DNA of 64,000 bases from Niastella vici (GTDB lineage Bacteria; Bacteroidota; Bacteroidia; Chitinophagales; Chitinophagaceae), in contig NZ_LVYD01000058.1 of assembly GCF_002077945.1 (NCBI RefSeq), positions 496,001 through 560,000 on the forward strand. The letters are read 5' to 3'. Shown here piece after piece: positions 41,500 through 58,360 of the stretch. Position 1 is the first letter of the stretch, and each line of letters opens with the position of its first letter. Below the pieces are notes generated by a model. The model was not told the DNA's origin and ran no database searches. It saw nothing but the letters and a program-made list of their open reading frames with translations. Position numbers and translations under genes: made by a program.

Positions 41500-41526
41500 C
41501 AACTGTCAGGAATTTCCTGACAGTTG
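41500..41526. repeat. 27-bp palindrome between convergent rhuM and nmrA-like genes
   Basis: Arms CAACTGTCAGG (41500-41510) and CCTGACAGTTG (41516-41526), centre AATTT. Perfect. It starts 1 base after the rhuM stop. It could act as a two-way hairpin terminator, though there is no T-tract. Confidence 0.85.
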
Positions 41527-41542
41527 TAGTAGAGGGAGGTGC

Positions 41543-42496
41543 TCAATACGAAAGTTTTTGACCTTGCCAACCTGTGGTGCGCAGAAATTGTTCCCAACTG
41601 AGGCTGTCGGGGTTTATTTGTCGGCTCCATAGCAGATCGCGGTCCTTTTTGAAATAGCCATACTCAACTGCGTACGTTACCATTCCCAAAATTTCATGCA
41701 CTAAGGTCTCGTTTGAACCAATTTCCGGGAAATGATGAAGCAAACTCGCCCGTGTGAACGCAGAACTATATTCAGCCTTCTTACCTGTGACCTGGATGAA
41801 AGTATCGACCATTTCCTGGGGTGAGATAATATCGCCGATAACTGGCAGTGACTTACCAGCGTACTTACCTGGATTCGAAAAAATTTCCAAAACAGCCGGA
41901 CCAGTAGCCGTAAGCGGATCAACAAATGGTGCCCGGAAGTCTTTGGGTAAATAGATCGGAAACACCAATGTATCGCCTTTCATAGCAGGTGGATAAAATT
42001 CAAGCAGATTGGTGTAAAAGAAAGCCATATAAATAAACGAGCTGGTGACAGGTAGCGTACGAATATATTCTTCGATGTTGGCCTTGTCTGTAAAATGAGG
42101 CGCAAACATTTTTCCATCCGTAATTTTATCTACATTTTCCAGGCTGCTGAAGATAATATGCTGTACGCCTGCTTCAACCGCCGCATCTGCCAACTGTTTA
42201 CCCAACTCCATTTCATGAGTGGCGGGTGGAATAATGCCAGGAGTCAGCATGAAAACACCCGCTGAGCCAAGGAATGCTTTCACAAAGTCTTTTTTATAAC
42301 CCAGATCAAGCGGTACATTCACCAGTTCGGCTCCCTGTTCTATCAAACCAAGCGCTTCCGGTGAATCAACGCGACGGGTGATACCGCGTACCCGGTAACG
42401 CCCGCTTTGTAATAAAGTGCGGGCAGCACTGCGCCCTTGCTTACCCAAAACGCCAACGATAGTAATGAGGGGTTTATCTTTTAAACTAAATGCCAT
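41543..42496 (-). CDS. NmrA-like NAD(P)-binding protein
   Basis: 317 residues. N-terminal Rossmann motif ITIVGVLGKQGRSAARTLL (GxxGxxG type) and the NmrA/HSCARG layout of atypical short-chain dehydrogenases (HIIFSSLENVDKIT, SFIYMAFFYTNLLEFYPPAM). Probably a redox or quinone-type sensor/reductase. Divergent from an HxlR regulator, a common pairing. Confidence 0.85.
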   Translation of the reverse strand: MAFSLKDKPLITIVGVLGKQGRSAARTLLQSGRYRVRGITRRVDSPEALGLIEQGAELVNVPLDLGYKKDFVKAFLGSAGVFMLTPGIIPPATHEMELGKQLADAAVEAGVQHIIFSSLENVDKITDGKMFAPHFTDKANIEEYIRTLPVTSSFIYMAFFYTNLLEFYPPAMKGDTLVFPIYLPKDFRAPFVDPLTATGPAVLEIFSNPGKYAGKSLPVIGDIISPQEMVDTFIQVTGKKAEYSSAFTRASLLHHFPEIGSNETLVHEILGMVTYAVEYGYFKKDRDLLWSRQINPDSLSWEQFLRTTGWQGQKLSY

Positions 42497-42518
42497 GTTT
42501 TCTGTTATTGAATTTTAG

Positions 42519-42546
42519 AACTATAAAAAATATAGTTGCAAAACTA
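42519..42546 (-). promoter_or_regulatory. Promoter and operator-like palindrome of the NmrA-like gene
   Basis: Minus-strand -7 box TAGTTTTG (42546-42539) with a TTG about 20 bases upstream. The palindrome AACTATA/TATAGTT (42519-42537) covers the expected start site, where a repressor would block transcription. Confidence 0.5.
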
Positions 42547-42572
42547 TTTACGGGGCAATAGATTTACAATAA

Positions 42573-42588
42573 CTATCCATTTGGATAG
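42573..42588. promoter_or_regulatory. Second operator-like palindrome in the divergent promoter region
   Basis: CTATCC, ATTT, GGATAG, 18 bases before the HxlR start. It shares the ACTAT core with the palindrome at 42519. Probable HxlR binding site. Confidence 0.45.
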
Positions 42589-42605
42589 CTTTTAAAATAA
42601 ATGTT

Positions 42606-42983
42606 ATGGGAATAGAATGTAAGAGTGATTTTATAAAAATCAATAATAAATTATACCCTTGCACGGTGAGTGCAGCGATGGATCTTGTCGGCGGAAAGTG
42701 GAAAGCGGTTATTCTATATCATTTAAAGGATGCCCATAAACGATATAGTGAGTTGAGAAAGGAAATGCCTGGCGTTACAGAACGAACATTGAGTTTGCAA
42801 TTAAAACAGTTAGAGGAAGACGCGTTGATTTCAAGGCAGGTTTTTGGAAAAAAGCCGCCCATTAAAGTTGTTTATAGTTTAACAGATTTTGGCAAAACGT
42901 TCACTCCTGTATTGGCAGCAATACTTGAGTGGGGAAATCAGATAGCTGAGGAAAGAGGGGAATTTGTCGGGAATGCTTTATGA
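42606..42983 (+). CDS. HxlR-family winged-helix regulator
   Basis: 125 residues: family hallmark CTVSAAMDLVGGKWKAVILY with Cys19 (redox-sensing in some members), then the winged helix (RYSELRKEMPGVTERTLSLQ, LEEDALISRQVF). Likely controls itself and the divergent NmrA-like gene. Confidence 0.92.
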   Translation: MGIECKSDFIKINNKLYPCTVSAAMDLVGGKWKAVILYHLKDAHKRYSELRKEMPGVTERTLSLQLKQLEEDALISRQVFGKKPPIKVVYSLTDFGKTFTPVLAAILEWGNQIAEERGEFVGNAL

Positions 42984-43477
42984 CCTGGCGACTATGTGGC
43001 ATTTTGTCAAGGTGATATTTAAAATAGTCAGGTTCTCACCAGAAGTTGTTAAAGATATGCCCTCTCGTACTAACTATACGGCGTCCGGGACTTAAAATGC
43101 GATATCCAGATCTAAAGATGCCGCATTTTGATCGAACTTTTTTGCATCCAGATCCAACTATAGTGCATCGCCGCTTAACTTTGAGCCATAAGAACATAAA
43201 AATGAGACACGAGTAGCTAATTTAAAGGTATAAGTTGCAAACCTATAACACAAAGTTGAAACAGGAAGCTGCATAATTTGGTACTGATACCACATAATTG
43301 GCTACTGACGTTCCATAATGAAATCTGGATACAATATAATGAGTCCTGGATTTACAATAACGATACCGGGATAATGCATAGTTGGCACAGAAAATTGTAT
43401 TTATACTTCCGGATGGTGCAAACAGTTAAGTAGAGACAATTAATTATATTGTGCTACCAAAATTCAGGATCTCACAT
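42984..43477. other. Non-coding stretch with degenerate repeats
   Basis: About 490 bases without a credible gene. It contains repeated words such as ATCCAGATC (two places in 43100-43165) and CATAATTTGG / CATAATTGGC / CATAATG spaced by about 20-25 bases (43270-43385). This style recalls the multi-repeat ends of IS21-type elements, but no istA/istB frame is present, so at most it is a scar. Confidence 0.3.
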
Positions 43478-44110
43478 ATGGATAAAAAGTGCAATGCCTT
43501 ACTGCAGATAATTATTTTACAAATTCTTGTTACCGTTATATTTGGTTGTCAAAGTGCAGTTACTGAAAGCGCTTCGAAACCTGTAGAACCCCAAAAAGAA
43601 GTTGATAGCGAAAATAAAACGGCCGCAAAAAAAATAGAACCAAAGAAAGAAGTTGATAACGGAGATGAAAGTGAATTAAACGATATTCTTGCAGACTTCA
43701 TGGAAATGAACGATAAGCCTTATTTACATGATACCCTGTTGATGATTGACAAGGATAGTTTTATTGTTTCTATAAAGCATTTACAAATCTACGAAGACAC
43801 TATAGTTGTTCCCAAAAAGTATGTTGAAATGTACAAGCTCGAAAGCTTTAGTACTTTTGCTTTTAAAACGTCGGTTACCATAAAGAAAAACGGGAAGGTC
43901 ATTATGCAAAGAAATATTTTGAAAGATGACTTTCAGCAATATCTTGATCCCTCATTAAAAAGCTATGCGGTATTGCTTTATCCATATGTCGTCACCAGGC
44001 AGGGCCACATTGAGATCCATCACAGTATCAGCATTCCATTGACAGATGTAGGAATTGGAGTATCGACTACGATCGATAAGAATGGGAACGTTGAGTTTAT
44101 GCGGAACTGA
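43478..44110 (+). CDS. Hypothetical lipoprotein
   Basis: 210 residues from the ATG at 43478, which begins the signal peptide; lipobox at Cys24 (VIFGC). A charged linker holds two copies of EP(Q/K)KEVD. The folded part (about 70-210) is beta-rich, with a C-terminal strand HIEIHHSISIPLTDVGIGVS. Not recognised. Codon use looks more AT-rich than the PUL genes. Confidence 0.5.
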   Translation: MDKKCNALLQIIILQILVTVIFGCQSAVTESASKPVEPQKEVDSENKTAAKKIEPKKEVDNGDESELNDILADFMEMNDKPYLHDTLLMIDKDSFIVSIKHLQIYEDTIVVPKKYVEMYKLESFSTFAFKTSVTIKKNGKVIMQRNILKDDFQQYLDPSLKSYAVLLYPYVVTRQGHIEIHHSISIPLTDVGIGVSTTIDKNGNVEFMRN

Positions 44111-44471
44111 TGGGATAATACTCACCAATGCAATTTTCATAACTCATTGATCCGCTTGGTCTGGCCACATGAATGTGTATGCTTTACGTTATTTATTCAA
44201 TTAAATGTACTCTCTTCATTAACTGGGATAGATAATCGAATAATACATATATTTGGTTTTACATCTAAAAGGTCCGTTAAGACTCTCTGATTTTGTCGCA
44301 CCCCACATAACCCATCGACAGGGACAAACCAACCACTTCAGTGCATTAGACTACTTGTGCAAGCTTTTATGTCTTGCCAATAGGACTATTGTAGCTAATT
44401 AAATTTCTGATTTAACACATGGCGCACTGAGATGGGCGCCAGGCAGGAGTATTTACTTAAAATTTCATAGC
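44111..44471. other. Intergenic region without recognisable content
   Basis: 361 AT-rich bases before the PAAR gene. No open frame, clear terminator or convincing promoter box was seen. Confidence 0.5.
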
Positions 44472-45323
44472 TTGGGTAAACCAGCAGCACGAATAGGCGA
44501 TATGCATGATTGTCCGGCCGTATCACCGGCAGGCGTACTGCATGTGGGCGGACCAATTGTTGGTCCGGGTAGTACAACAGTATATATAGAAGGATTGCCA
44601 GCGGCTACAGCAGGGGATGCGTGCTTTTGTGTTGGCGAGCCAGATAAAATAGTCTCCGGTTCAACAGGTGTATTTATAGAGGGAAAGGCGGCTGTGCGCC
44701 AGGGAGATCGATGCGCGCATGGCGGGGTGGTAGTAGGAGGGAGTGGAACGGTGGAGATTGGGGAGCGGATGGGGGCGTTGGGAGTGCCAGGGTTTGGAAA
44801 TGTTGATGATAATTTTATAGAACCTTCTGAAGAACAAAAAAAGGTAATAATAAACCAGGCAATCAAGGATTGCGTAAGCTTGCTGGAAAGAAAGCTGGAG
44901 TTATTACAAGATGAAGACCCGAATACACTTTCGCAGTTTAAGGATTGGTTTGGAAGCGATGATCATGAGTCGAAGCAAAAAATTTTATCAAGGATTAGCA
45001 GGGCGTTGGCGGTGAGCAAAAATTTGACTGAAGCTAACTTTGCACCAATTAAAAATGAAAAGGCTAAAAAAGAAGATTATGCTAATGCTTATCATGAAGA
45101 TGAATCGCATAAAATCCTTCTTGGAGACTTATTTTGGAAGGCTGATGCTAAAGGAAAATGTTCTCAAGCATCGGTCATAGTTCATGAGTTGTCTCACTTT
45201 GACGATATTGGACCAACAGAAGATGTTATTTATGGAGAGGAACGTTGTTTAAAGTTAGCAAAGGATTATCCGCATCTGGCTTTGTCAAATGCCGACTCAT
45301 TTGAGTTTTTTATAATAGCGTGA
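44472..45323 (+). CDS. PAAR-tip effector with M35 (aspzincin) metallopeptidase domain
   Basis: 283 residues from a TTG, the only start that puts the PAAR motif (MGKPAARIGDMHDCP) at the N-terminus; no in-frame ATG lies upstream. Residues 1-100 form a PAAR repeat domain, the sharpened tip of contractile injection systems. Residues 120-283 carry the aspzincin signature: HELSH (238-242), GPTEDVIYG (247-255, cf. GTxDxxYG with the third zinc ligand Asp) and NADSFEFF (273-280). This is predicted to be a toxic endopeptidase (peptidyl-Lys type in known members) carried by a type VI-like system. No T6SS structural genes lie in the window. The next gene is the likely immunity protein. Confidence 0.85.
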   Translation: MGKPAARIGDMHDCPAVSPAGVLHVGGPIVGPGSTTVYIEGLPAATAGDACFCVGEPDKIVSGSTGVFIEGKAAVRQGDRCAHGGVVVGGSGTVEIGERMGALGVPGFGNVDDNFIEPSEEQKKVIINQAIKDCVSLLERKLELLQDEDPNTLSQFKDWFGSDDHESKQKILSRISRALAVSKNLTEANFAPIKNEKAKKEDYANAYHEDESHKILLGDLFWKADAKGKCSQASVIVHELSHFDDIGPTEDVIYGEERCLKLAKDYPHLALSNADSFEFFIIA

Positions 45324-45355
45324 TGTGCCGAGGGGGTAAAAATTTTGAATATTAA

Positions 45356-45769
45356 ATGTATATGTTTATGGTAAAAAAGTTTGTTGATATTCACCTGACA
45401 GTTGATATAATTACGGATTTATTGCTTGCTCATGTACAGTTTCTAAATAATTCAGATAAGGAAATATATTTAGATACAAAAACGATTTGTAGTGATAATA
45501 GAACAACCAGAAGCGTGTTTGATATCACAGACGAACATCAGAATAAAGTTAAGTATAAGGGAGTTTTAGTAAAACGTGTAGTTGTTCCTGAGGACTATAT
45601 ATCATTGAAAGTTGGCGAAAAAATAGAAGCTCAGATCGTTTTAAATGAAGTATATAAGTTAGAAAAGGGCAATAAGTATAATATTCAATATTCTGTTTTT
45701 CACCCTACTTATATGGATGAAGCGGGTTTTACGAAATTGGAATCTAATAAGGTGGAAGTTAGTTATTAA
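45356..45769 (+). CDS. Probable immunity protein for the M35 effector
   Basis: 137 residues; ATGs at 45356, 45362 and 45368 all possible. No signal peptide. It is a small beta-sandwich. The stretch KVKYKGVLVKRVVVPEDYIS, the following LKVGEKIEAQIVLNEVYKL and YNIQYSVF resemble the Ig-like N-terminal domain that precedes the catalytic domain in many secreted M35 peptidases (pattern Y.G..VKR....DY..L..G). It starts 33 bases after the effector. A free copy of a propeptide-like domain is a natural inhibitor; this is inference from similarity remembered, not searched. Confidence 0.6.
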   Translation: MYMFMVKKFVDIHLTVDIITDLLLAHVQFLNNSDKEIYLDTKTICSDNRTTRSVFDITDEHQNKVKYKGVLVKRVVVPEDYISLKVGEKIEAQIVLNEVYKLEKGNKYNIQYSVFHPTYMDEAGFTKLESNKVEVSY

Positions 45770-45836
45770 TGGCTGTAAAGAGAATGTTTCTAGTTAGGCA
45801 ACTGTTCGGAGATTTCAATACTAACTTGCTTACAAA

Positions 45837-47066
45837 TTAAAACAGCTTCGGTTGAATTTGAAAATCTTTTCTTTTGTAATAATTACTGAGTCCTATTTTA
45901 ACAATTTCAACCTCATCTAAATTGTTTAAGTAGTTGCATAACTGTTGTGGAGTCCAATCCAAATGAACTTGTTCAATAATTTCATTAATAGACAAAGGTT
46001 TGCCATTAAATAAATTCAAGATTGTCTCCTTAATTTCTTTATTTGATTTTGTTTGATATTCTGTTTGAGGATCATACATGGTTTGGCTTGACAGCTCAGT
46101 TTCCAGAATATAATTTGTGCTTATTATCTGCGTTGAGGTATGAAGCGAATTTAAGTGTTGAACGAGTTCATCACCATTAGAAAGAGGGATGCCCCCCATT
46201 TTTATCAGATCAATGTTTCCAATAGGAGCAGGGTTTAATAAAGCGGGATTCAATACAAAAAGCGGAATGTTATGTTTTAATGCAGTCAGGCCTGCATCAA
46301 AAGTACCACTCATTTTTCCGCTGGCATCGCGTTCTGGGCCTGATGCAATAACAATAACAGCTTTTGACAAAGCACACACCAATTTGTTTCTTGCCATGGC
46401 ATTTTGCCCCGAAAATTTCTCATAAGGCATAAATTGGGAAATGAAAAGTGTGTTTTGTTCCCAATTATATTCTTTGATATCTTTTTTAATGCTCAAATGA
46501 TTAAAGCCGTAGCTTAAAACCATTGTCGTTGTGCTATTACTTTCAAGCGCTCCAATGTGGGCACTTGTATCTACTCCTTTAGCAAAGCCGGAAGTTACAT
46601 TGTATCCGCAACCTGCAATTCTATTTGCAATACGTTTAGTAAGCGTTATGGCATAATCGCTTACATCTCGCGAACCGATAATGGAGATGCTATCAGCATT
46701 CAAAAGTGACAAGTTCCCTTTACAAAATAAAACTGGTGGGGCATTCCCTCCTAACCTTTCAATAAGGGATTTAGGGTAGCGTTCATCATCTAACCCTATA
46801 ATATGGACATTTTCTTGTTTTAATTGCTGATAAGAAGCGTATAGTTGCTGCTCGTCTAACGAATGTAAAGAGGATAAATTCGCCCGTGAAAACTTGCCCC
46901 GGCCAATTTCGGGAAAGTATTCAGTTAGTTGTGAAAGGCTTTTTTCAAACAAGTCATTTACTTTCAATCCCAGGTTTTTGAGATTCCCATATATATAAGA
47001 AATGCTTTTTGCACCGAAGCCTGGTGTATTAAGAAGCATATATGTGGAAAATTCTCTGTCTCTCAT
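45837..47066 (-). CDS. DprA/Smf-like protein, likely defence-associated
   Basis: 409 residues with the DprA Rossmann-like core: YPKSLIERLGGNAPPVLFCKG, SISIIGSRDVSDYA, VTSGFAKGVDTSAHIGALE and SGTFDAGLTALKHNIPLFV, then a C-terminal winged helix (EIKETILNLFNGKPLSINEI). Classic DprA loads RecA on incoming DNA. This copy is translated from an ATG overlapping the stop of a phosphoribosyltransferase gene, an arrangement distinct from the housekeeping dprA and, from memory, listed among predicted anti-phage gene pairs. Confidence 0.85.
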   Translation of the reverse strand: MRDREFSTYMLLNTPGFGAKSISYIYGNLKNLGLKVNDLFEKSLSQLTEYFPEIGRGKFSRANLSSLHSLDEQQLYASYQQLKQENVHIIGLDDERYPKSLIERLGGNAPPVLFCKGNLSLLNADSISIIGSRDVSDYAITLTKRIANRIAGCGYNVTSGFAKGVDTSAHIGALESNSTTTMVLSYGFNHLSIKKDIKEYNWEQNTLFISQFMPYEKFSGQNAMARNKLVCALSKAVIVIASGPERDASGKMSGTFDAGLTALKHNIPLFVLNPALLNPAPIGNIDLIKMGGIPLSNGDELVQHLNSLHTSTQIISTNYILETELSSQTMYDPQTEYQTKSNKEIKETILNLFNGKPLSINEIIEQVHLDWTPQQLCNYLNNLDEVEIVKIGLSNYYKRKDFQIQPKLF

Positions 47067-47720
47067 CGTTTTGACCTGGTTTTAGTAATTGTCAGCACAT
47101 ATACATTTTTGGCTTTGCCCTGGTTGGTGATTATGTCCCAAGCCGCACTGAGTGTTACATAAAGATCGTCAAAAAGCAGGATATTTTTGCCTGTTAAGTG
47201 GCCATTTTGAAGTCCAAATGCCCCATCCAAAAGTTGTTTTCGCTTAGCCGGATCATCAATTCCTTTCATTTCGGGGGTTGATTTTAATCTCTTTAGACAA
47301 TGGAAATCAATAGGAAGCCTGCAATGCTGTCCTATGTGAGTAACGATTTCAATTACCGGTTGAAACTCCCTAGTTACATCGGATGGGGGAATGGGTATTA
47401 TTAGACTAATGTTCCAGGATGGCAGTTGGTGCTTTAGAAAATCTGCTGCTGTCTCTCCGATTACTTCAGCTCTTTGTATTTCCTTCCAATATTTTTAAAT
47501 GGTTCATTTCGAGCCCCATTGGCGTATATGTATTTTCCCATTTAATGACCTCGTCCTGAATTACTTTTTCAATTGTCACTGGTTTTCCATCAACCAGAAC
47601 AGTTTCTGTTACCTTTTTTGTTGACCATTCTTTAGGAACACTTGACAAAGTATGTAAGTCCAAAGCAAAGCCCTCTTTCCATGGCCCTGGTAATCGTTGT
47701 GGATTTATATTCATAAGCAA
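47063..47720 (-). pseudogene. ComF-like phosphoribosyltransferase gene with a +1 frameshift
   Basis: Two overlapping frames together make one protein. The first (47720 to 47466) begins INPQRLPGPWKEGFALDLHT; the second (from about 47494 down to 47063) reads AEVIGETAADFLKHQLPSW, then SLIIPIPPSD and the PRPP-loop-like NILLFDDLYVTLSA. The second frame has no start codon before Met at 47269. The switch needs +1 near 47469-47475. So this is a frameshift mutation, a sequencing error, or (less likely) recoding. The gene overlaps dprA by 4 bases (ATGA), so the two are coupled. In the PRPP loop the usual TTGAT is replaced by VTLSA. Confidence 0.65.
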
Positions 47721-47996
47721 TTAGAGGGATTGTTATAGCAATTCAGATATTTTCGCTTATGTATGGGGATTATAAATATAAATAATAAATGCTATTATTG
47801 ATGCCAGTACCAGTTCATGTTATACGAAATTGATTGTAATCAAGATTGGAAACTGAAGTTGAACTGGTTAAATACTGTTAAAAATCCTGCAACGCTAGAA
47901 CCAAAACCTTAACCCACATCAACACTATTTCTTAACCAGGATCATTGCCTCAAATGAACGCAGAGTGGGATCTTTGCAATATTAATTCGCTGCATC

Positions 47997-48695
47997 ATGC
48001 CAAAGACCTTTAGTTTAATAGTGATATTAACCTGTTGCACTATAGCGACCGGGGCACAAACAATCACCTGGAAAAAGCAGGAGTTTGTTTTGAAAAATGT
48101 CACCGCGTCGGTTGTTAAACTAAATGGAGAAGAAGTACTAAAAGTGGAAAGGGATTTAAAAGCATTGCCATTCGATATAAATAATATGGCTGCCACCGTA
48201 GATGAACCAACCTATGTTAAGTTGCAGCATGTTGAGCTGGAAAATGGGATAATTGAAGTGAAGTTGTTAAGCCGCATTCAGGACCCTTCACCCTTTGAAG
48301 GGGCAAGGGGATTTATCGGGCTTGCTTTTAGAATAAGTGAAAACGATACGGCGTATGAATCCATTTATGTAAGACCAAAGAATGGGCAATCGGAGGACCA
48401 GTTAGCGCGGAACCATACCGTGCAATATTATTCGTATCCGCATTATAAGTTCGACCGGTTACGACGCGAGGCTGCAGGTGTATACGAAACTTATGCTGAT
48501 ATTGGGTTAAATGAATGGATAACCTTCCGCGTTGAATTAGCTGGCGATACCGCGAAGTTGTATATAAATGATCAAAAGCATCCGGCGTTTATTGTCAATA
48601 AGATGAAAGGCGATGTAACTAAGGGTGCAATAGCCTTATGGGTTGATATAGGAACGACCGGCTACTTTAAAGATCTGACAATTACAAAGAAATAA
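47997..48695 (+). CDS. Secreted concanavalin-fold (LamG/DUF1080-like) protein
   Basis: 232 residues, signal peptide MPKTFSLIVILTCCTIATGA. A beta-sandwich pattern with YVKLQHVELENGIIEVKLL, ARGFIGLAFRISEND and WITFRVELAGDTAKLYINDQ is typical of LamG or DUF1080 domains that bind or process sugars. Isolated gene; function unknown. Confidence 0.65.
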   Translation: MPKTFSLIVILTCCTIATGAQTITWKKQEFVLKNVTASVVKLNGEEVLKVERDLKALPFDINNMAATVDEPTYVKLQHVELENGIIEVKLLSRIQDPSPFEGARGFIGLAFRISENDTAYESIYVRPKNGQSEDQLARNHTVQYYSYPHYKFDRLRREAAGVYETYADIGLNEWITFRVELAGDTAKLYINDQKHPAFIVNKMKGDVTKGAIALWVDIGTTGYFKDLTITKK

Positions 48696-48769
48696 AAGTC
48701 ACAAACAAACCCGCTGGCAGCACTACGAGTTTGTTTGTGACAATACCCTGAGCACCAGGCAACTCTTAA

Positions 48770-49429
48770 CTATTTACCCTGGCTCCATTTCTTCCTTCGC
48801 GCCAGTTCCGCTTCGCTCGGTTCCTCCGATACAAACGAACCGTGTTTCACTTCGCCATCCGGAACATAACTCCCAATTAGTACACCCGTTGTTGACACTT
48901 CCGACTCCGTCAATTTCCATTGTTGCGCCTGGGTGCCTTCTTCAAACAATTTTTTTCCTTTACCAAGTGTGATGGGGAATGTCCAGATATGCAATACATC
49001 AACCAGGTGATTGGCTAATAAAGTTTGTATCAACCGGCTGCTGCCCCAAACAAAGAGGTCGGGGCCATCCTGTTGCTTTAATTTCTTCAACTCATTCACT
49101 ACATCTTTGTTGATGAGGACGGTGCCATTCCACGACGTATCAATAGGCGTTGTGGCCACTACGTATTTATTGATGCGGTTGAACAATTCACCGATCGCGT
49201 CATTTTTATAAGGCCAGTACGCCGAAAATATTTCATATGTACGACGGCCAAGCAGCAGGTCATGCGGGGCCGACATGATCTTGTTCAATTTATTATTCAT
49301 CAACTCATCCCAATAATGAAATGACCAGCCGCCCCATTTGAATCCATTTGTAGGATCTTCTTCCGGTCCGCCCGGCGCCTGCAATACGCCATCCATTGTC
49401 ATATAGGTGGCAACAATAATTTTTCGCAT
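48770..49429 (-). CDS. RibD C-terminal/dihydrofolate-reductase-like protein
   Basis: 219 residues from the ATG at 49429 (a longer frame begins at 49465 but a promoter box lies at 49454-49461). MRKIIVATYMTMDGVLQAPGG, HDLLLGRRTYEIF and a C-terminal LHIWTFPITLGKGKKLFEEG are typical of the YwjB/YyaP dihydrofolate-reductase-like family. Physiological substrate unknown. Confidence 0.88.
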   Translation of the reverse strand: MRKIIVATYMTMDGVLQAPGGPEEDPTNGFKWGGWSFHYWDELMNNKLNKIMSAPHDLLLGRRTYEIFSAYWPYKNDAIGELFNRINKYVVATTPIDTSWNGTVLINKDVVNELKKLKQQDGPDLFVWGSSRLIQTLLANHLVDVLHIWTFPITLGKGKKLFEEGTQAQQWKLTESEVSTTGVLIGSYVPDGEVKHGSFVSEEPSEAELARRKKWSQGK

Positions 49430-49453
49430 ATTTTTTTGTTTTGTTTGATGACT

Positions 49454-49643: not shown

Positions 49644-49662
49644 GGTGTCGCCGGGGTATAAT

Positions 49663-50735: not shown

Positions 50736-50749
50736 GTAATAAAGTCAGC

Positions 50750-50774: not shown

Positions 50775-50841
50775 TAATTATCCGGAAATTCTGAAAAGTT
50801 CAGTTCTCCGGATTTTCCCAATCCTCCATTAAATTTACCCA

Positions 50842-51606
50842 ATGCAAATTCAGTACTGTTCAGATCTGCACCTCGAATTTCCTGCTAATAGTAAGCATAT
50901 AAAAAAGCATCCGCTTGAGCCGGTGGGTGAGGTATTGATCCTGGCCGGCGATATCCTGCCTTTTGCGCTGCACAAAATGCAAACGAACTTTGTTGATTAT
51001 ATAGCCGATCATTTTGAAATGGTGTATTGGGTGCCTGGGAACCATGAGTACTACGGGTACGATCTGTCAACAGTAGCCGATCCGTTGTTGGAGAAACTTC
51101 GAAGCAATGTATGGCTGGTAAATAACCAGGTGGTTGATTACAAGAATGTGAGTTTTATTTGCAGCACGCTATGGAGCAAAATAGATGTCGTGCATGCTTT
51201 TGATATTCAGCGAAGCATTTCAGATTTCTTTTCCATACAATGGCAGGGGCAGAAATTAACCACCGAACAATTCAACCAACTGCACAATCAGTCGGTTCAA
51301 TTTTTAGAGAAAGCGTTTAAGGAAGTGAGTACGGAGAAACGCATCGTGATCACGCATCATGTACCTACTTTATATCAATATCCAAACCGGTATAGGAATA
51401 GTCCATTGAACGGCGCTTTTGTAACGGAGTTGTATGATCTCATCCATGATTCCGGAGCTAATTACTGGATCTACGGCCATCATCATTACAATATCCCGGA
51501 ATTTAAAATCGGGGCTACCACTTTGCTAACGAATCAATTGGGGTATGTGCAGCACGGTGAGCATTTGAGTTTTAGGCGGGAGAAAACGATAGAGATAGAA
51601 AGTTGA
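50842..51606 (+). CDS. Calcineurin-like metallophosphoesterase, copy 1
   Basis: 254 residues. Metal-binding motifs: SDLHLEF (DxH), LAGDIL (GDxx), PGNHEYYG (GNH[E/D]), THHVPTLY and YGHHHYN (GHxH). Cytosolic, no signal peptide. Substrate could be a nucleotide, nucleic acid end or phosphoprotein. A close paralogue lies at 57536. In both places it follows dinD after palindromes, so the two genes form a module. Confidence 0.9.
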   Translation: MQIQYCSDLHLEFPANSKHIKKHPLEPVGEVLILAGDILPFALHKMQTNFVDYIADHFEMVYWVPGNHEYYGYDLSTVADPLLEKLRSNVWLVNNQVVDYKNVSFICSTLWSKIDVVHAFDIQRSISDFFSIQWQGQKLTTEQFNQLHNQSVQFLEKAFKEVSTEKRIVITHHVPTLYQYPNRYRNSPLNGAFVTELYDLIHDSGANYWIYGHHHYNIPEFKIGATTLLTNQLGYVQHGEHLSFRREKTIEIES

Positions 51607-52200
51607 ACTAGCAAGGAATAGTGGATCTTGTGCCTGAAAGCGAAGCCAGAACGTAGCCAGGGTAGTGCAACTACGGTCCTGTATTAAGCCCAGGATAACC
51701 AGGTTAATGTAAACACCCAGCTTTGTGATCATATAACAGATCACCATAACAAACACTTATATAGCTGGCGCCGGTGGTAGCGTAATGGTACCGGTATTGT
51801 AGCCTGATGCTCTAAACACTGTACACTTACTCTACAGAGATCCTACAGGAACCTAAGGCTGCAGTAGGCCATTCCTGTACCAGTCTCAGCGCAGTCTCAG
51901 AGCTATTCCTATAGCGCAACACCCTTTCGAATACTACCCAGCATGGAGCCTACTACCAAGGGCGCGCCCCTTCCTTCATAAAAATGCTTTGCTTGTACCG
52001 GGCAGCTTTGATCCGAATTAGCATTAAACGAAATTTAAAACGTTTTTTCACCGCGATCGCGAATAAGACTGTAAAACCCTCAATGAGCCTATTGAATTGG
52101 TTAAAATGGCTAATAGAGTTGCGGCAGATTATGTGTTTGTGTGACGCAGTTTGCGTGCAAGTAATTAACCCCCTCATTCAGCACATTTCCCAATCCGGGA

Positions 52201-52266
52201 TAACCGAAGCGTGACCGAAGCTTAACCGAAGCTTGACCGAAGCTTAACCGAAGCTTGACCGAAGCA
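52201..52266. repeat. Six tandem 11-bp repeats
   Basis: Unit T(A/G)ACCGAAGCT, alternating TAACC and TGACC, thus a 22-bp higher period. One of the few simple tandem arrays in the window; iteron-like or slippage-prone. Confidence 0.9.
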
Positions 52267-52325
52267 TTCCTTAAGGCATTCCCTAAATTGGAATAGTAAA
52301 TGCAGTAGGGTGGCAAAAATATTCC

Positions 52326-52342
52326 TTAGCCAACTTGGTTAA
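52326..52342. promoter_or_regulatory. TTAGCCAA-type palindrome
   Basis: TTAGCCAACTTGGTTAA, one mismatch from a perfect dyad. A second copy is at 52459-52475 (TTAGCCAAGTTGGCTAG), followed at once by a further half-site AACTTGGCTAA (52476-52486). Likely a protein-binding site upstream of the gene at 52644. Confidence 0.45.
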
Positions 52343-52643
52343 TTTGTCTGAAAAAAAATCGTATGAGACGGAGGGTATTCGAAATCCCATTTCAATTCTG
52401 TTGAACATAGTCGTCGCTTTCAACTATTTCAACTTCAACAAATGTGGATAACTAAATCTTAGCCAAGTTGGCTAGAACTTGGCTAATCGAACGGTTTTTC
52501 TGCCTCAATTTTGATCAACGCTTAAGCAGTGAGTGCGATGCAGCGAAACCGGAAGCTAGCGCCGGAATGCTGCCGTACTTCCTGCCTCCCGGCCGGAATA
52601 GCGTTGTAACAATTTTACTTCTAACATTTTAAAAATTGATTTT

Positions 52644-53213
52644 ATGGCAGAATCTAAAAATAACTATGTCATGTTTGGCATGTCGGGGAAATTGGGCAAG
52701 CTGCTCATTTTCCGCCAGCGCGGGGGTAAAACTATTGCCACGGCCATCCCCAATCGCTCCAATGTGTTTACCGAACAACAGTTGGAGATACAAAGTAAAT
52801 TCAAAGAGGCAGCTTCCTGGGCACGCGGCATCCTGAAGAATGCGGAGAACCGCAAGTTCTACAGTTCCCAGGCAACGGGCGGTCAATCGGCCTTCAACAT
52901 GGCCATAGCCGATTGGTTTACTGATCCCGAAATAAAGGAGATCGACACCAAAGATTATACCGGTGTGGTTGGCAGTGTTATCAAAATAGGGGTGATAGAT
53001 ATCATCAAGGTGCAATCGGTGAAAGTGTCCATCACCACCGCAAGTGGTACGCTGGTGGAAGAAGGCAACGCTGTTTTTGATGCCAATAGCCAGCAATGGT
53101 TGTATACGGCCGTTCAAAACAATGCAACGCCTGTAGGTTCGCACATTAAAGCAACGGCTACCGACAAACCGGGCAACAGCCATTCGCTCGAAAAAGTGAT
53201 AGAAGCTTCCTAA
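52644..53213 (+). CDS. Conserved hypothetical protein with N-terminal SGKLG...FRQRGGKT motif
   Basis: 189 residues, no signal peptide. N-terminus NYVMFGMSGKLGKLLIFRQR is followed by a helical segment (LEIQSKFKEAASWARGILKN) and a beta-rich C-terminal half (VKVSITTASGTLVEEGNAVF). I recall similar unnamed Bacteroidota proteins but no function. Strong terminator follows. Confidence 0.6.
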   Translation: MAESKNNYVMFGMSGKLGKLLIFRQRGGKTIATAIPNRSNVFTEQQLEIQSKFKEAASWARGILKNAENRKFYSSQATGGQSAFNMAIADWFTDPEIKEIDTKDYTGVVGSVIKIGVIDIIKVQSVKVSITTASGTLVEEGNAVFDANSQQWLYTAVQNNATPVGSHIKATATDKPGNSHSLEKVIEAS

Positions 53214-53240
53214 GCAGCTATTTTGTTTTTGTCATTGAAA

Positions 53241-53273
53241 AGACTGCCCCCGGTAAAATGGGGGCGTCTTTTT
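53241..53273 (+). terminator. Rho-independent terminator
   Basis: AGAC.GCCCCC (53241-53251) pairs with GGGGGCGTCT (53260-53269), then a T run. Confidence 0.88.
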
Positions 53274-53300
53274 ACCTGGTATCAGGAGAAGTTTAGTTGA

Positions 53301-54200
53301 TTAACCCGCCTCTTCCAGTTCCACTATTTGTTGAGAAAGAACGTGTGTAACAGGTTGCATCTGCTGATTGAGATATAACTGATAGGCAGCTTCAACCAGG
53401 CAAAGAATATGATTATAAACCATCCAGGCCTGCCAGGGCGAGAAGCCGTTGGGGTATTGACCCTCGTAACCGATGCCGGCTTCGAGGAAGTCGGCCAGTT
53501 CGCGCCGGGTGTACTCGATGGGGCATTGCTGAAAGAAAGAAGTAATAACCAGGGAAGGATCGGCCAGTTGTTCCTCATTCAAATATACCGGCGTAAAATG
53601 GGGGGAATTTTCCGACTTACAATACACCGCCTCCACAAAGGGTAACAGCTGATCATGAAACTCAAACAGGATCTCCCGGTCAATGGCAGCAGTATAAGGA
53701 CTCATGTTATTAATAAGCGCCACGCGCAACCAATTAGGCAATAAATATTCCTGCAACTCATCAAACGGCGTGTGAGAAAACACCTCAGCAATTACTTCAT
53801 CAGGGTGGGACGTAGCTTTTTCAATCAACCGGGCTGGTTTCGAGAACCGGGCAGGTTGAGCCACTTTCGCGGTTGGCTGAACCAGTTTATTCCTGGCTGT
53901 TCCTGGCGGCTGACTCACCGGGTTAATGATCGAGCCGGTCTGCCGTTTCATTATCCACGCAGCCTCCACCAGGGATTCCATTTTTTCATAGAAGAATAGG
54001 TAGTTATTACGCTCATGATAGTCATCGGCATGGCTACCCGGACTGGAAACCGCAGCGGTTAGCCATTGCCACATGATTTCGCGAACGTCCTGGAGGTGGT
54101 AGCATTGGAAGAAGTCGTACAGGACAAGTTGCGGGTTATTGGTTTGTTCAGGAGTGAGGCGGAGGGGTGTGTTTTTAAGATTGGGATTGTGGGTTTTCAT
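53301..54200 (-). CDS. Hypothetical protein made of three diverged repeats
   Basis: 299 residues from the ATG at 54200. Three copies of a helical unit: NPQLVLYDFFQ...MESLVEAAW, HPDEVIAEVFSH...LLPFVEAVY and DPSLVITSFFQQ...ILCLVEAAY, each about 70-85 residues and ending in a conserved VEA(A/V) block. A basic linker (PTAKVAQPARFSKPARLIEK) joins units one and two. No known family recognised. Confidence 0.6.
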   Translation of the reverse strand: MKTHNPNLKNTPLRLTPEQTNNPQLVLYDFFQCYHLQDVREIMWQWLTAAVSSPGSHADDYHERNNYLFFYEKMESLVEAAWIMKRQTGSIINPVSQPPGTARNKLVQPTAKVAQPARFSKPARLIEKATSHPDEVIAEVFSHTPFDELQEYLLPNWLRVALINNMSPYTAAIDREILFEFHDQLLPFVEAVYCKSENSPHFTPVYLNEEQLADPSLVITSFFQQCPIEYTRRELADFLEAGIGYEGQYPNGFSPWQAWMVYNHILCLVEAAYQLYLNQQMQPVTHVLSQQIVELEEAG

Positions 54201-54394
54201 GATGGCAAGTTTAATAGTGAAGTAATAGTAATCTTGATCAGTGTCAATTTTTGAACTGATAGTCAATATATTGAAAAGATGATGGTATATTAGTGGTGTA
54301 TTATAATAGTGTCTGTATAGCGTTTCTGCAAAATTATTATAGAAAATTATTGGAAGATTGAAATAGTTGATTTAATTTGCTCTGTATAGTAATT

Positions 54395-54976
54395 ATGCGA
54401 TATTATTTATCCGATATAGCAGAAGTGTTTACTGGGCATACGCTTCGGGAGAAAGTACAACATGATCCCGATGGTGAATGCGCCGTAATTCAATTAAAAG
54501 ACCTGTCATTCACACCCAATGTCTGCATTAAGAATCCGCCCTATAAAATCTCATTGCTGCGCGGTATTCCCAAAAATCAGTTGCTTCAAAAAGGTGATAT
54601 CCTGATCCTTTCGAAAGGTTCTGCTAATAAAGCCCTGTTATACGAAGGTCAATATGCGCCGTCAGTTGCCGTTTCGGCATTTACAATAATCCGATTACAT
54701 AGCGGTCATCTGAAACCGGAATTTTTAACCTGGTATATTAATAGTACCGGGGCGCAGGAGTATTTTAGTATGCACCGGGCCGGTACTACTACTTTGAACC
54801 TATCGAAAAAGGCGATCGATGAATTACCGGTTCCGGTACCGCCTTTGGAGAAGCAGGAAATTATGATGAAATTGGTAACTCAATATGAGTTATATACAAA
54901 CCTGGTAGCCGAATATGAGCGTAATGTCCGGATGCTGGTCGATCATACATTAAACAATCAACTTAACGATCAATAA
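54395..54976 (+). CDS. hsdS: Single-TRD HsdS-like specificity subunit
   Basis: 193 residues from the ATG at 54395. One target-recognition domain (YYLSDIAEVFTGHTLREKV; LLQKGDILILSKGSANKALL; INSTGAQEYFSMHRAGTTTL; IDELPVPVPPLEKQEIMMKL) and one helix of the spacer; a usual HsdS has two. Its stop is directly followed by the hsdM start (TAAATG). Half-size S proteins can work as dimers with M. A second, full-length S gene lies at 58382. Confidence 0.85.
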   Translation: MRYYLSDIAEVFTGHTLREKVQHDPDGECAVIQLKDLSFTPNVCIKNPPYKISLLRGIPKNQLLQKGDILILSKGSANKALLYEGQYAPSVAVSAFTIIRLHSGHLKPEFLTWYINSTGAQEYFSMHRAGTTTLNLSKKAIDELPVPVPPLEKQEIMMKLVTQYELYTNLVAEYERNVRMLVDHTLNNQLNDQ

Positions 54977-56500
54977 ATGAGCCGTAAACCAACACAAGAC
55001 GAGATCAATGCCGCGCTATGGGCTGCCTGTGATTCCTTCAGGGGAACGCTTGACAGCAGCGATTATAAGAATTACATCCTCAATTTCATGTTCCTTAAAT
55101 ACCTGAGCGATGTATGGAAAGATAAATATGAAGAGTACAAAAAACAGATAGGTGATAACGATGAGCTGATCCGTCGTAAAATGAACCGCGAACGATTTGT
55201 GTTACCAGATCATTGCACATTTGATTATATAGTTGAGCATAAGCACGATACCGACCTGGGTTCATTGATCAATAAGATCACGGAGAAGATTGAAGATGAG
55301 AACAAGAGCAAAATGGAAGGGGTGTTTAAAGATATCGATTTTAATTCTGACAGGTTGGGTAATACCAAAGACCGTAACCGAAGGCTGAAAAACCTGATTG
55401 AAGACTTCGATAAACCGCAGCTTAATTTTCGTCCGTCTGTAATTGGCAGCGAGGATATTATTGGTAACGCGTACATGTACCTGATCGAACGTTTTGCCGG
55501 CGGGGCCGGTAAAAAAGGCGGCGAGTTTTATACACCACATGAAATAAGTGTGTTATTGGCCAGGTTGATGATGCCCAAAGCAGGCGACCGGATTTGTGAC
55601 CCTACCTGCGGTTCCGGCTCATTACTGATTACTGTTGCCGAACAGGTGCCCTTTAAACCGGGTACGCATTTAAGGGATTGTAGTCTGTATGGGCAGGAAA
55701 GCAATGGCGGTACCTGGGCATTAGCAAAAATGAACATGTTCCTGCATGGTATGGATGCGGCGCATATTGAGTGGGGCGATACCATTAATCAGCCGTTATT
55801 GATAGAAGGCGATCACCTGATGAAATTTGACATAGTGGTGGCCAATCCGCCTTTCTCCTTAGACAAATGGGGGGCAGAACGGGCGGCACATGATACGTAT
55901 AAACGCTTTACCCGGGGCATACCGCCAAAGACAAAAGGCGATTATGCGTTTGTGTTGCACATGATCGATACGGCGGTGGAAGGCTCAGGCAAAGTGGGGG
56001 TGATTGTACCGCATGGTGTGTTATTCCGCGGAAGCAGTGAAAGGCAGATCAGGGAAAGCCTGGTCCGCGATAATCTGCTGGAAGCGGTGATAGGTTTGCC
56101 ATCGAACCTGTTCTTTGGAACAGGGATACCGGCGGCTATTCTGTTGTTCAATAAAGGAAAGAAAACAAAAGATGTATTGTTTATTGATGCCAATAAGGAA
56201 TTTGAAAGCGGTAAAAAGCAGAACACCATACGCGAACAGCATATCAGCCGCATTGTAGATACGTACAAAGAGTTTTTACAAGGTGGGGGAGAAAAAGAAA
56301 AATATGCCCATCGCGCCAGCTTTGAAGAAATAGAAAAGAATGAATTCAACCTCAATATACCCCGGTATGTAGATACGTTTGAAAAAGAGGAGGAAATTGA
56401 TATACCTGCAGTGCAAAAGAGGATTGAAGAGCTGGATGAAGAGTTGGTAAAAGTAAAAGCGGAGATGAATAAGTATTTAAAGGAGTTGGGGTTTAAATAG
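54977..56500 (+). CDS. hsdM: Type I restriction-modification DNA methyltransferase subunit
   Basis: 507 residues. HsdM N-terminal helical domain (INAALWAACDSFRGTLDSSD), then the N6-adenine methyltransferase: motif I DPTCGSGSLL (near 208) and motif IV VVANPPFSLDKWG (near 290). C-terminal helices bind HsdS. Start fused to the preceding hsdS stop. Confidence 0.96.
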   Translation: MSRKPTQDEINAALWAACDSFRGTLDSSDYKNYILNFMFLKYLSDVWKDKYEEYKKQIGDNDELIRRKMNRERFVLPDHCTFDYIVEHKHDTDLGSLINKITEKIEDENKSKMEGVFKDIDFNSDRLGNTKDRNRRLKNLIEDFDKPQLNFRPSVIGSEDIIGNAYMYLIERFAGGAGKKGGEFYTPHEISVLLARLMMPKAGDRICDPTCGSGSLLITVAEQVPFKPGTHLRDCSLYGQESNGGTWALAKMNMFLHGMDAAHIEWGDTINQPLLIEGDHLMKFDIVVANPPFSLDKWGAERAAHDTYKRFTRGIPPKTKGDYAFVLHMIDTAVEGSGKVGVIVPHGVLFRGSSERQIRESLVRDNLLEAVIGLPSNLFFGTGIPAAILLFNKGKKTKDVLFIDANKEFESGKKQNTIREQHISRIVDTYKEFLQGGGEKEKYAHRASFEEIEKNEFNLNIPRYVDTFEKEEEIDIPAVQKRIEELDEELVKVKAEMNKYLKELGFK

Positions 56501-56548
56501 AAGGCGCTCATAAACCAAAATACATCATCAATCAATAAAAAGTAAGCC

Positions 56549-57403
56549 ATGAAACAAGAACAAATTAAAGAACTGTTTGAAAAATTTGAATCAGCTTGTT
56601 ATGAAATCAAAGGTGTAGAGTGTTGGAGTGCCAGAGAGTTACAGGATATATTAGGTTATAAAGAATGGCGAAATTTCATGAACGTTATTGAAAAGGCAAA
56701 GGAAGCTGTTAAAAATTCAGGAGATCAATTAGATGACCATTTTGTTGAAGTCAACAAAATGGTTCCAATTGGTTCAGGATCAGAGAGAACTGTTGATGAT
56801 GTCGCACTTACCAGATATGCCTGTTATCTTGTTGCTCAAAATGGAGATCCTTCTAAACCTGCTATTGCTTTTGCTCAAACTTATTTTGCTGTTCAAACCC
56901 GTAAACAGGAAATAATAGAACAACGATTGTTAGATGTGGCGAGAGTTAGTGCGAGAGAGAAATTAACCAAGTCTGAAAAAAAAATGTCGGGTATTTTGTA
57001 TGAAAAAGGAGTTGATGAAAAGGGTTTTGCATTAATTCGTTCCAAAGGCGATCAGGCTTTGTTTGGAGGTTATACTACTACTGATATGAAACGTAAATTA
57101 GGTGTGCCGGCATCAAGGCCTTTAGCAGATTTTCTTCCGACGTTAACCATTAAAGCTAAGGATTTTGCAACAGAGCTTACAAGTCACAATGTTCAGGAAA
57201 AGGAATTAAGAGGGGAAACTTCAATAGGTCAGGAGCATGTGGATAATAATAAAGCTGTTCGTAAAATGTTGGTCGAGCGTGGTGTTAAACCAGAGCAATT
57301 GCCTGCTGCAGAAGATGTACAAAAGGTAAAAAGAAAATTGGAGTCTGAGGAAAAGAAAATGCTAAAAGATGTAAAGAAGGAAAAAAGGGGTAGGAAAAAA
57401 TGA
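56549..57403 (+). CDS. dinD: DinD-like protein (BRO/KilA-N type), intact
   Basis: 284 residues, full length, with Lys-rich tail (KKEKRGRKK). Same motifs as dinD1: VECWSARELQDILGYKEWRN, IGSGSERTVDDVALTRYACY, QTYFAVQTRKQEIIEQR, KGDQALFGGYTT. It is inserted between hsdM and the second hsdS together with a phosphoesterase gene. Codons 63-72 again hold a palindrome. A link to DNA damage or phage-induced stress is inferred from the E. coli namesake. Confidence 0.9.
   Translation: MKQEQIKELFEKFESACYEIKGVECWSARELQDILGYKEWRNFMNVIEKAKEAVKNSGDQLDDHFVEVNKMVPIGSGSERTVDDVALTRYACYLVAQNGDPSKPAIAFAQTYFAVQTRKQEIIEQRLLDVARVSAREKLTKSEKKMSGILYEKGVDEKGFALIRSKGDQALFGGYTTTDMKRKLGVPASRPLADFLPTLTIKAKDFATELTSHNVQEKELRGETSIGQEHVDNNKAVRKMLVERGVKPEQLPAAEDVQKVKRKLESEEKKMLKDVKKEKRGRKK
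56736..56763. repeat. 28-bp palindrome inside dinD2
   Basis: Arms ACCATTTTGTTGA and TCAACAAAATGGT, centre AG. Exactly the same codons as in dinD1; the two bases that differ per arm change together on both sides. Confidence 0.9.
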
Positions 57404-57434
57404 TTAATAAATCAGTTATTATGTTGGCATTCTT

Positions 57435-57461
57435 CAGTTGTCAAGTATTTCTTGACAACTG
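57435..57461. repeat. 27-bp palindrome after dinD2 (TGTCAAG class)
   Basis: Arms CAGTTGTCAAG and CTTGACAACTG, centre TATTT. Arms are identical to those after dinD1; the centre differs. Confidence 0.9.
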
Positions 57462-57491
57462 GACGCTGAAGATGAGAATAAATTAACTAAG

Positions 57492-57518
57492 GAACTGTCA
57501 AGGAAAACTTGACAGTTC
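57492..57518. repeat. 27-bp palindrome before mpe2
   Basis: Arms GAACTGTCAAG and CTTGACAGTTC, centre GAAAA. Perfect. Confidence 0.9.
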
Positions 57519-57535
57519 AAAAAGGTAGTTCACTA

Positions 57536-58294
57536 ATGACCATTCAATACTGCTCAGACCTTCATCTGGAATTTCCCAGGAATAAAATGTTCCTGGAAAG
57601 GTTCCCACTTCAACCGGAGGGCGTAGTATTGATATTGGCCGGTGATATTTTACCATTTCACTTGCACAAAAAACAAACCGGCTTTATTGATTTTGTAGCA
57701 GATAATTTTGAAATGGTATACTGGGCGCCCGGTAACCATGAATATTATGGACATGATGCGGCAACGGTGGCTGATCCATTGCTGGAAAAATTACGCAGCA
57801 ATGTATGGCTCGTCAACAACCGGGTGATAGCGTATAAAGACGTGCAGTTTATATGCAGTACTTTATGGAGTAAGATACCGGTGGTAAATGCATTGGATAT
57901 ACAGCGAAGCATTTCAGATTTTCATGCTATCCGCTGGCAGGGAAAGAAATTGAGTGCTGAACGATTTAATCAGCTGCATGAAAATTCGGTTGCTTTTTTA
58001 CAGCGGGCTTTTAAGGAGACTAATACAATGAAAACGGTTGTGGTTACCCATCATGTGCCTACGCTGTATCAGTACCCTGATCAGTATATGAATAGTCCAT
58101 TAAATGGCGCGTTTGTAACCGAGTTATATGATTTGATTTTTGGTTGTGGCGCTGCTTATTGGATTTACGGGCATCACCACAGTAATGTAGGTGCGTTTGC
58201 GATAGGTGAAACAACCTTGTTGACCAACCAGCTTGGTTATGTGGAGTATGGTGAGCATGCCGTTTTTAGTAGAAATGCAGTAAGAAACATTTAA
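57536..58294 (+). CDS. Calcineurin-like metallophosphoesterase, copy 2
   Basis: 252 residues from the ATG at 57536; the earlier frame start at 57509 falls in a palindrome and is rejected. Motifs SDLHLEF, LAGDIL, PGNHEYYG, THHVPTLY and YGHHHSN as in copy 1, to which it is closely similar. Located inside the type I locus between dinD2 and the two-TRD hsdS. Confidence 0.9.
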   Translation: MTIQYCSDLHLEFPRNKMFLERFPLQPEGVVLILAGDILPFHLHKKQTGFIDFVADNFEMVYWAPGNHEYYGHDAATVADPLLEKLRSNVWLVNNRVIAYKDVQFICSTLWSKIPVVNALDIQRSISDFHAIRWQGKKLSAERFNQLHENSVAFLQRAFKETNTMKTVVVTHHVPTLYQYPDQYMNSPLNGAFVTELYDLIFGCGAAYWIYGHHHSNVGAFAIGETTLLTNQLGYVEYGEHAVFSRNAVRNI

Positions 58295-58304
58295 AAGATA
58301 TATC

Positions 58305-58329
58305 AGCTATTCGAAATTTTCGAATAACT
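58305..58329. repeat. Palindrome after mpe2 (TATTCGAA class)
   Basis: Arms AGCTATTCGAAA and TTTCGAATAACT around T; 11 of 12 pairs. Confidence 0.8.
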
Positions 58330-58333
58330 CACT

Positions 58334-58360
58334 GAGTTATCCGGGATTTCCGGATAACTC
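58334..58360. repeat. 27-bp palindrome before hsdS (TATCCGG class)
   Basis: Arms GAGTTATCCGG and CCGGATAACTC, centre GATTT. Perfect. 21 bases before the hsdS start. Confidence 0.9.

Follow-up and report, generated by a model that had tools for sequence, protein, structure and literature searches.

Palindromes at fixed codons within rhuM, dinD and related genes, and their link to the recognition helix of the encoded proteins

The lac operator O2 lies within the coding sequence of lacZ, and the repetitive extragenic palindromes with their associated tyrosine transposases (REP/RAYT) and the Rickettsia palindromic elements are short palindromes, some of them within genes, that occur as dispersed or inserted units. 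The nearest precedent for the arrangement considered here appears to be phage lambda, with its origin within the O gene; the O protein is a DNA-binding protein whose dimers bind inverted-repeat sites within its own gene (PMC5043065). The present study concerns palindromes in and around the rhuM and dinD genes of a 64,000-nucleotide stretch of the Niastella vici genome (the window; positions 496001–560000 of contig C58, in a genome of 10.06 Mb on 134 contigs), which would represent a counterpart at superfamily scale. The sites predicted for RhuM and DinD are positioned within the proteins' own genes, as in lambda O, but lambda O has a set of repeats used for replication, whereas the genes considered here have one palindrome, which encodes the segment after the recognition helix; the arrangement covers five protein families in several phyla, and no evidence points to an origin, origin features not having been searched for. 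Like lac O2, these are presumed regulator sites inside a coding sequence, but lac O2 sits in a target gene, whereas each site here belongs to the gene of the regulator itself and changes with the recognition helix; unlike in REP/RAYT and the Rickettsia elements, the position in the domain is fixed and the core follows the recognition helix. No earlier description of a self-encoded palindrome in the RhuM, DinD, Bro-N, ORF6N and KilA-N families was found in the open-licence literature.

A palindrome is present at fixed codons within genes of five families (RhuM, DinD, ORF6N, KilA-N and a Bro-N type), and in RhuM and DinD its core follows the recognition helix of the encoded protein more closely than overall relatedness would explain. 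Both the window genes and the compared loci were found with, or match, the profiles PF13310, NF008573, PF02498 (Bro-N), PF10543 (ORF6N) and PF04383 (KilA-N). The RhuM sample included 160 loci, 80 from named genome records and 80 from viral contigs, these being the best 80 relatives per scan. Among the 149 open reading frames (ORFs) that could be parsed, all 12 of 12 pairs were formed in 33, 11 in 56, 10 in 39, 9 in 20 and 8 in 1. The 140 distinct genes, from bacterial, archaeal and viral records, had a mean of 10.69 of 12 pairs, compared with 8.24 after shuffling of synonymous codons and 7.72 in a downstream control; the shuffles, applied to RhuM, DinD and ORF6N, left the protein unchanged, and the best centre was chosen anew each time. 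At least 10 pairs were found in 122/140 genes versus 2/140, and the per-gene shuffle p was ≤0.05 in 112/140 and ≤0.01 in 66/140. The best palindrome was situated 14–26 residues before the GYR motif in 138/140 genes (exactly 18, 21 or 24 residues in 131) and encodes the stretch following the helix-turn-helix. Counting from the centre, positions 3–7 and 10–12 were paired in 136–140 of the 140 genes, positions 8 and 9 in 94 and 114, and the two positions adjacent to the centre in 74 and 105. The use of pairs at position 5 was near even (GC 36, CG 34, AT 34, TA 32), and the arms vary widely between genes with pairing kept; encoded peptides include TVRKFRTV, VVKEYLTT, VVANFATT, VVSKMETT, VTEKFSAT and TCKDFLQV, the residues co-changing in matched pairs (R..R, K..L, A..A, S..E) as DNA symmetry requires. 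The first-pass annotation of the window had proposed that differences in one arm are matched in the other; the covariation is real, and its basis lies within the genes, which that annotation had overlooked.

Mutual information with residues outside the encoded stretch indicated which part of the protein the palindrome follows. Palindrome positions 3–6 peaked at RhuM columns 28, 29, 31, 32 and 35, and positions 7–8 at columns 30 and 34; all the peaks in columns 28–35 belong to the second helix of the helix-turn-helix, i.e., the recognition helix, while positions 10–12 were linked to columns 59–65 and 41. The five-base core, of which 24 variants occur among 134 RhuM genes, was predicted by the leave-one-out nearest neighbour, chosen either by seven helix residues or by the remaining aligned part of the N-terminal domain; the helix predicted it in 86% of cases, the rest of the domain in 45% and a random choice in 8.6%, and, with neighbours less than 60% identical, the values were 73%, 12% and 6%, respectively. 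Pairs of RhuM proteins 45–55% identical elsewhere and having the same helix had a common core in 13 of 13 cases; pairs at least 70% identical with different helices shared the core in 1.3% of 155. Residue 35 corresponds to the core: E goes with GGC (22/23), R with ACG (16/17), Y with AGC (10/13), L, M or I with GA (28/28), and K with CCT (31/40) or ACG (8/40). Nineteen additional RhuM genes from the taxonomic family of N. vici were checked by eye; 18 fit, including two with helix variants outside the table, and the other (L463) has a degenerate palindrome. The half-site cores are 10 bp apart, which is one helical turn.

The same relations were seen in DinD, where 92 distinct genes had a mean of 11.35 of 13 pairs, against 8.50 in shuffled sequences and 8.01 in the control, and where the palindrome centre was at one codon ±1 in 87/92 genes. 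The DinD core covaries with helix columns 34, 36, 37 and 40; the helix predicted the core in 78% of cases and the rest in 60%, and, for neighbours less than 70% identical, in 76% and 34%. Several dinD palindromes are continuous through the centre, without a loop. The relatedness control for the link between helix and core covered RhuM and DinD, and the ORF6N and KilA-N samples are smaller and without this control. ORF6N, sampled as the best 30 loci of a phylum sample, yielded 27 entries with a mean of 10.93 pairs, compared with 7.72 after shuffling, and in 24 of them the offset was the same ±1 codon; genes with Q (15), E (8) or K (2) at one helix residue had CAC, CGC or CCT, respectively, at positions 3–5 with no exception, the core varied in three genes with R at that residue, and a second helix residue, K or R, was linked to palindrome position 7. 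All 21 KilA-N loci were parsed, with 10–12 pairs at one offset, and a correspondence between helix and site was found in 18 genes, a small sample including near duplicates. Bro-N-type proteins with a YWxxLK motif had the palindrome at one place in 17/17 distinct parsed genes, with 8–12 pairs, while controls had at most 9. The single ORF6N match of the N. vici genome (locus L519, C13:142940-143209) has a perfect 12/12 palindrome at the family position. In three other ORF6N genes (L528, L533 and L540), the best palindrome is located 9–14 codons past the usual place, and a segment of the LRSQ type is apparently repeated in frame.

The genes and palindromes of the window are as follows (coordinates, strand where assigned, description).

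40518–41498, forward strand: rhuM-Fic gene, 326 amino acids (PF13310, 79.1 bits, cut-off 33.7; PF02661 Fic, 43.7 bits, cut-off 24)
40638–40664, forward strand: codons of the RhuM recognition-helix segment KSKSTINEH (modelled helix, family columns with the highest mutual information)
40716–40736, forward strand: self-encoded palindrome within rhuM, core TTCGG N5 CCGAA
41500–41526: solitary RhuM-type palindrome, core TCAGG, perfect, arm/loop 13/1, one base past the rhuM stop
49537–49560: solitary RhuM-type palindrome, core TCCGG, imperfect, 10/13 pairs about 49548
49614–49643: solitary dinD-type palindrome, perfect, 30 bp, with the core of DinD genes having helix xRWEN
49668–49697: solitary dinD-type palindrome, 10/13 pairs, core the same as that of dinD1
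49822–50592, forward strand: dinD1 (NF008573, 320.4 bits, cut-off 242; Bro-N), the C-terminal part running on in another frame
50009–50036, forward strand: self-encoded palindrome within dinD1, core TCCT, encoding DHFPDVRKMV
50705–50735: solitary RhuM-type palindrome, core TCAAG, perfect, arm/loop 13/5
50750–50774: solitary RhuM-type palindrome, core TTCGA, perfect, arm/loop 11/3
50842–51606, forward strand: metallophosphoesterase 1 (PF00149, 59.9 bits)
54977–56500, forward strand: hsdM of a type I restriction-modification locus (PF02384, PF12161)
56549–57403, forward strand: dinD2 (NF008573, 361.5 bits, cut-off 242; Bro-N)
56736–56763, forward strand: self-encoded palindrome within dinD2, core TTGT, encoding DHFVEVNKMV
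57435–57461: solitary RhuM-type palindrome, core TCAAG, perfect, arm/loop 11/5
57492–57518: solitary RhuM-type palindrome, core TCAAG, perfect, arm/loop 11/5
57536–58294, forward strand: metallophosphoesterase 2 (PF00149, 52 bits)
58305–58329: solitary RhuM-type palindrome, core TTCGA, perfect 9/1 at 58308–58326 with imperfect flanks
58333–58361: solitary RhuM-type palindrome, core TCCGG, perfect, arm/loop 12/5
58382–59623, forward strand: hsdS (PF01420, 143.6 bits)
59722–62859, forward strand: hsdR (PF04313, PF18766)

The self-encoded palindromes of rhuM, dinD1 and dinD2 are each at the codon that is fixed for the family. The rhuM-Fic gene was the only PF13310 match in the genome in the profile search; the match spans positions 18–75 of the 252 of the profile and is followed by the Fic domain. 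In the structure model, its recognition helix comprises residues 43–55, with a predicted local distance difference test (pLDDT) score of about 96, and the core of its palindrome agrees with those of helices having E at column 35 (22/23 with GGC at positions 3–5, a set that leaves the window gene out). The dinD1 gene is apparently frameshifted near its 3′ end (window 50540–50670), the conserved DinD C-terminal sequence LPPAEDVKKVQRKL being in another frame. The ORF of metallophosphoesterase 2 had been listed from a TTG at 57509, and an in-frame ATG at 57536 lies downstream of the palindrome 57492–57518.

All eight palindromes reported by the first-pass annotation are present in the sequence, far above chance expectation, and no T-run follows any of them on inspection, which agrees with its statement that they are not intrinsic terminators. 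The 11-5-11 layout it assigned to most of them is exact for two copies (57435–57461 and 57492–57518) and loose for the remaining six. Each of its three arm classes is indeed represented at both modules of dinD and phosphoesterase genes, as 50705, 50750 and 49537 at the first and as 57435/57492, 58305 and 58334 at the second. It overlooked the palindromes within rhuM and both dinD genes, as well as the dinD-type sites 5′ of dinD1. The window has 10 perfect palindromes with an arm of at least 11 and a loop of at most 9, none of them outside 41500–58361; two are within the dinD genes, one is the dinD-type copy at 49614, and one, at 52459, is unrelated in sequence. By the same measure, 40 other stretches of this genome, 798,001 bases in total, contained 38, and a first-order Markov random copy of these stretches contained 2; none of the 38 belonged to the classes of the first-pass annotation. 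A 25-bp class pattern had 9 matches in the whole genome, 7 of them in the window and the other two imperfect. The refuting condition named by the first-pass annotation, an equal frequency of such palindromes beside unrelated genes, does not hold in this genome. The palindrome at 52459–52486 (11/6, TTAGCCAAGTT...AACTTGGCTAA) belongs to none of the described classes.

The solitary RhuM-type copies of the window have the cores TCAAG (three), TTCGA (two), TCCGG (two) and TCAGG (one), and there are two dinD-type sites. Read through the correspondence found in RhuM genes, TCAAG would call for a helix of type QNISLH, TTCGA for NTINYH and TCCGG for RTxNEH; TCAGG was found in no gene of the RhuM table. 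The only RhuM found in the genome has helix STINEH and core TTCGG; one tabled RhuM with KSTISEH has the core TCCGG, so the resident RhuM might read the TCCGG sites. The xRWEN helix type corresponding to the dinD-type site 49614–49643 is not that of either resident DinD. Across 147 genomes of this taxonomic family (N. vici included), 47 genomes had 74 matches to the class pattern, compared with 28 in the reversed control, which means that chance alone is expected to give weakly paired matches. Of the 65 matches outside the N. vici genome, 40 (38 loci), picked mostly for well-paired arms, were inspected: 22 belonged to a rhuM frame or its remnant, all having the same phase, 3 to a Bro-N-type gene, and 4 overlapped or adjoined other rhuM remnants, while the remaining 11, partly imperfect, were located elsewhere. 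In relatives, some solitary copies have no RhuM nearby and some adjoin ordinary genes such as those of seryl-tRNA synthetase and FecR. In one relative (G085), an intergenic region (L481, 2487–2770) contains two TCAAG copies 100 bp apart and, at 2750, a GTGCA copy whose core is that of a RhuM encoded in this relative (L464), a mixed cluster like that of the window. At locus L344, two solitary dinD-type palindromes with the core of the gene lie directly 3′ of dinD, 904 and 959 bases from the start of the 873-base frame, and, at L414, a same-core palindrome lies 42 bases before the dinD open frame.

The earlier suggestion that the palindromes could be binding sites of RhuM/DinD-type proteins is strongly supported, the palindromes being found in nearly all rhuM and dinD genes examined with cores that follow the gene's own helix. 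Judged from sequence comparison, it is highly probable that the recognition helix reads the site in the protein's own gene, and probable that the palindromes are operators for the N-terminal helix-turn-helix of RhuM, DinD and the related Bro-N, ORF6N and KilA-N proteins, each gene having its own operator. The two-fold symmetry of the site would suit a protein dimer, whose two recognition helices would read the two five-base cores, spaced by 10 bp, in successive major grooves on one face of the DNA. Such an operator would be located in the codons for the segment following the recognition helix, and a regulator whose operator is within its coding sequence travels together with its site. For autoregulation as the purpose of the self-encoded site, the chances appear about even: binding at the own gene would give negative autoregulation, for instance by blocking transcription within the gene; in an hsdM-x-hsdS operon, the block would extend to the genes downstream, and a mobile gene would be autoregulated under any promoter. 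LexA bound in vitro a site at a gut rhuM, there named death-on-curing protein (PMC3998124); rhuM genes may, therefore, be damage-inducible, as the name dinD says of dinD, and a self-operator could limit the level of a damage-induced regulator. The solitary palindromes around the dinD and phosphoesterase genes might then be operators of homologous regulators, mostly not now in the genome. Perhaps, and here the proposal is tentative and falls somewhat short of an even chance, the whole Bro-N/KilA-N/ORF6N/RhuM/DinD superfamily is built on a self-address, a segment serving both as binding site and as the code beside the recognition helix; regulator and site would diverge together into many mutually insulated specificities by which mobile elements tell their own kind from others, and solitary copies would be addresses by which one element answers another. 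If the operator reading is true, the target sites of common and poorly understood regulators of phages and defence islands can be read from their own genes, making their roles testable, and there is a natural set of matched protein–site pairs for a DNA recognition code; if the self-address reading is true, the recognition code of this domain can be read from genomes alone. These genes would also be a clear case of a coding sequence strongly selected for two functions, with paired amino-acid changes set by DNA symmetry.

Several observations weigh against the operator reading. A site about 180 bp inside the gene is an unusual place for repression, and around 138 RhuM genes no second same-core site was found to a distance of about 2 kb; no operator at a promoter is therefore visible, and the operator would have to be the one carried by the coding sequence. 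At the shuffle level were 21/149 RhuM ORFs (8–9 of 12 pairs) and 9/92 DinD genes (7–9 of 13 pairs); the palindrome of one RhuM gene (L463) is degenerate, with 7/12 pairs. The RhuM loci are the best 80 of each scan, those nearest to the query among the matches listed, and, with neighbours less than 50% identical, the helix predicted the core in only 26% of cases (rest of the domain 4%, random 2%), because few neighbours with the same helix are left. Most of the window's solitary sites differ in core from the palindromes of the resident RhuM and DinD, so the protein that reads them may be absent.

Self-recognition might also serve a purpose other than autoregulation, the own gene being an origin-like, immunity or competition site at which the protein would recognise incoming copies of its own element or start replication or recombination. 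The sole same-core site seen nearby is indeed the one within the gene, the families are widespread on viral contigs, and lambda O offers a precedent with an origin inside the O gene (PMC5043065); at the same time, in genome records, genes of type I restriction-modification systems are found within about 2 kb of RhuM in 13/80 loci and of DinD in 23/66, where no replicon would be expected, and this alternative seems rather unlikely.

A mobile palindrome, or copying from arm to arm by template switching (quasi-palindrome correction) without any binding function, would account for arms that change in pairs, for solitary copies next to ordinary genes (seryl-tRNA synthetase, FecR) and for the shifted ORF6N palindromes of L528, L533 and L540 with their apparent LRSQ repeat. 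It leaves unexplained the prediction of the core by residues about 20 codons upstream and the constancy of the codon across archaeal, bacterial and phage records; the single match to a Y1 (RAYT-type, PF01797) transposase in the genome is on another contig, C46, and the 798 kb sampled contained no member of the class. The REP/RAYT pattern of scattered copies close to such a transposase was not seen in these data. The mobile palindrome family suggested by the first-pass annotation is unsupported and very unlikely as the main explanation, and may hold for the solitary copies.

The same annotation had also considered RNA hairpins, which could act in the transcript by attenuation, insulation or processing, or as sites at which the protein binds its own mRNA. 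Five solitary copies do give strong hairpins on folding (−15 to −18 kcal/mol, z −5.4 to −7.2), and the central bases of the RhuM palindrome are free, as in a loop. An RNA helix, however, should tolerate G-U above A-C, and the mismatches at RhuM positions 3–12 were G-U in 14 cases and A-C in 28; at positions 3–7 of 139 genes (695 pairs), there were 0 G-U and 3 A-C, and the G-U/A-C counts were 37/34 in DinD, 4/4 in KilA-N and 5/7 in ORF6N. Paired arms without an excess of G-U have the type of symmetry of a duplex DNA site. With the core following a DNA-type recognition helix, several dinD palindromes having no loop at the centre and T-tracts being absent, RNA hairpins are disfavoured and appear most improbable.

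The idea that conserved amino acids in the encoded stretch produce the palindrome as a by-product is scarcely credible: the conserved motifs (DHFxDVxKMV, LRSQxxTS) do have codons favouring symmetry, and shuffles retain 7.7–8.5 pairs, but synonymous shuffling costs 2.4–3.2 pairs and the encoded RhuM residues themselves co-change in matched pairs. As a full explanation, amino-acid conservation is refuted for RhuM, DinD and ORF6N by the shuffles and the paired residue changes.

Two further ORFs adjoin the genes of the window described above. One similar to Doc/Fic (39765–40313) is situated directly 5′ of rhuM-Fic, with 31 bits to TIGR01550, below the cut-off; a partial hsdS-like ORF (54377–54976) lies directly upstream of hsdM, with matches to PRK09737 and MAD5 far below the cut-off.

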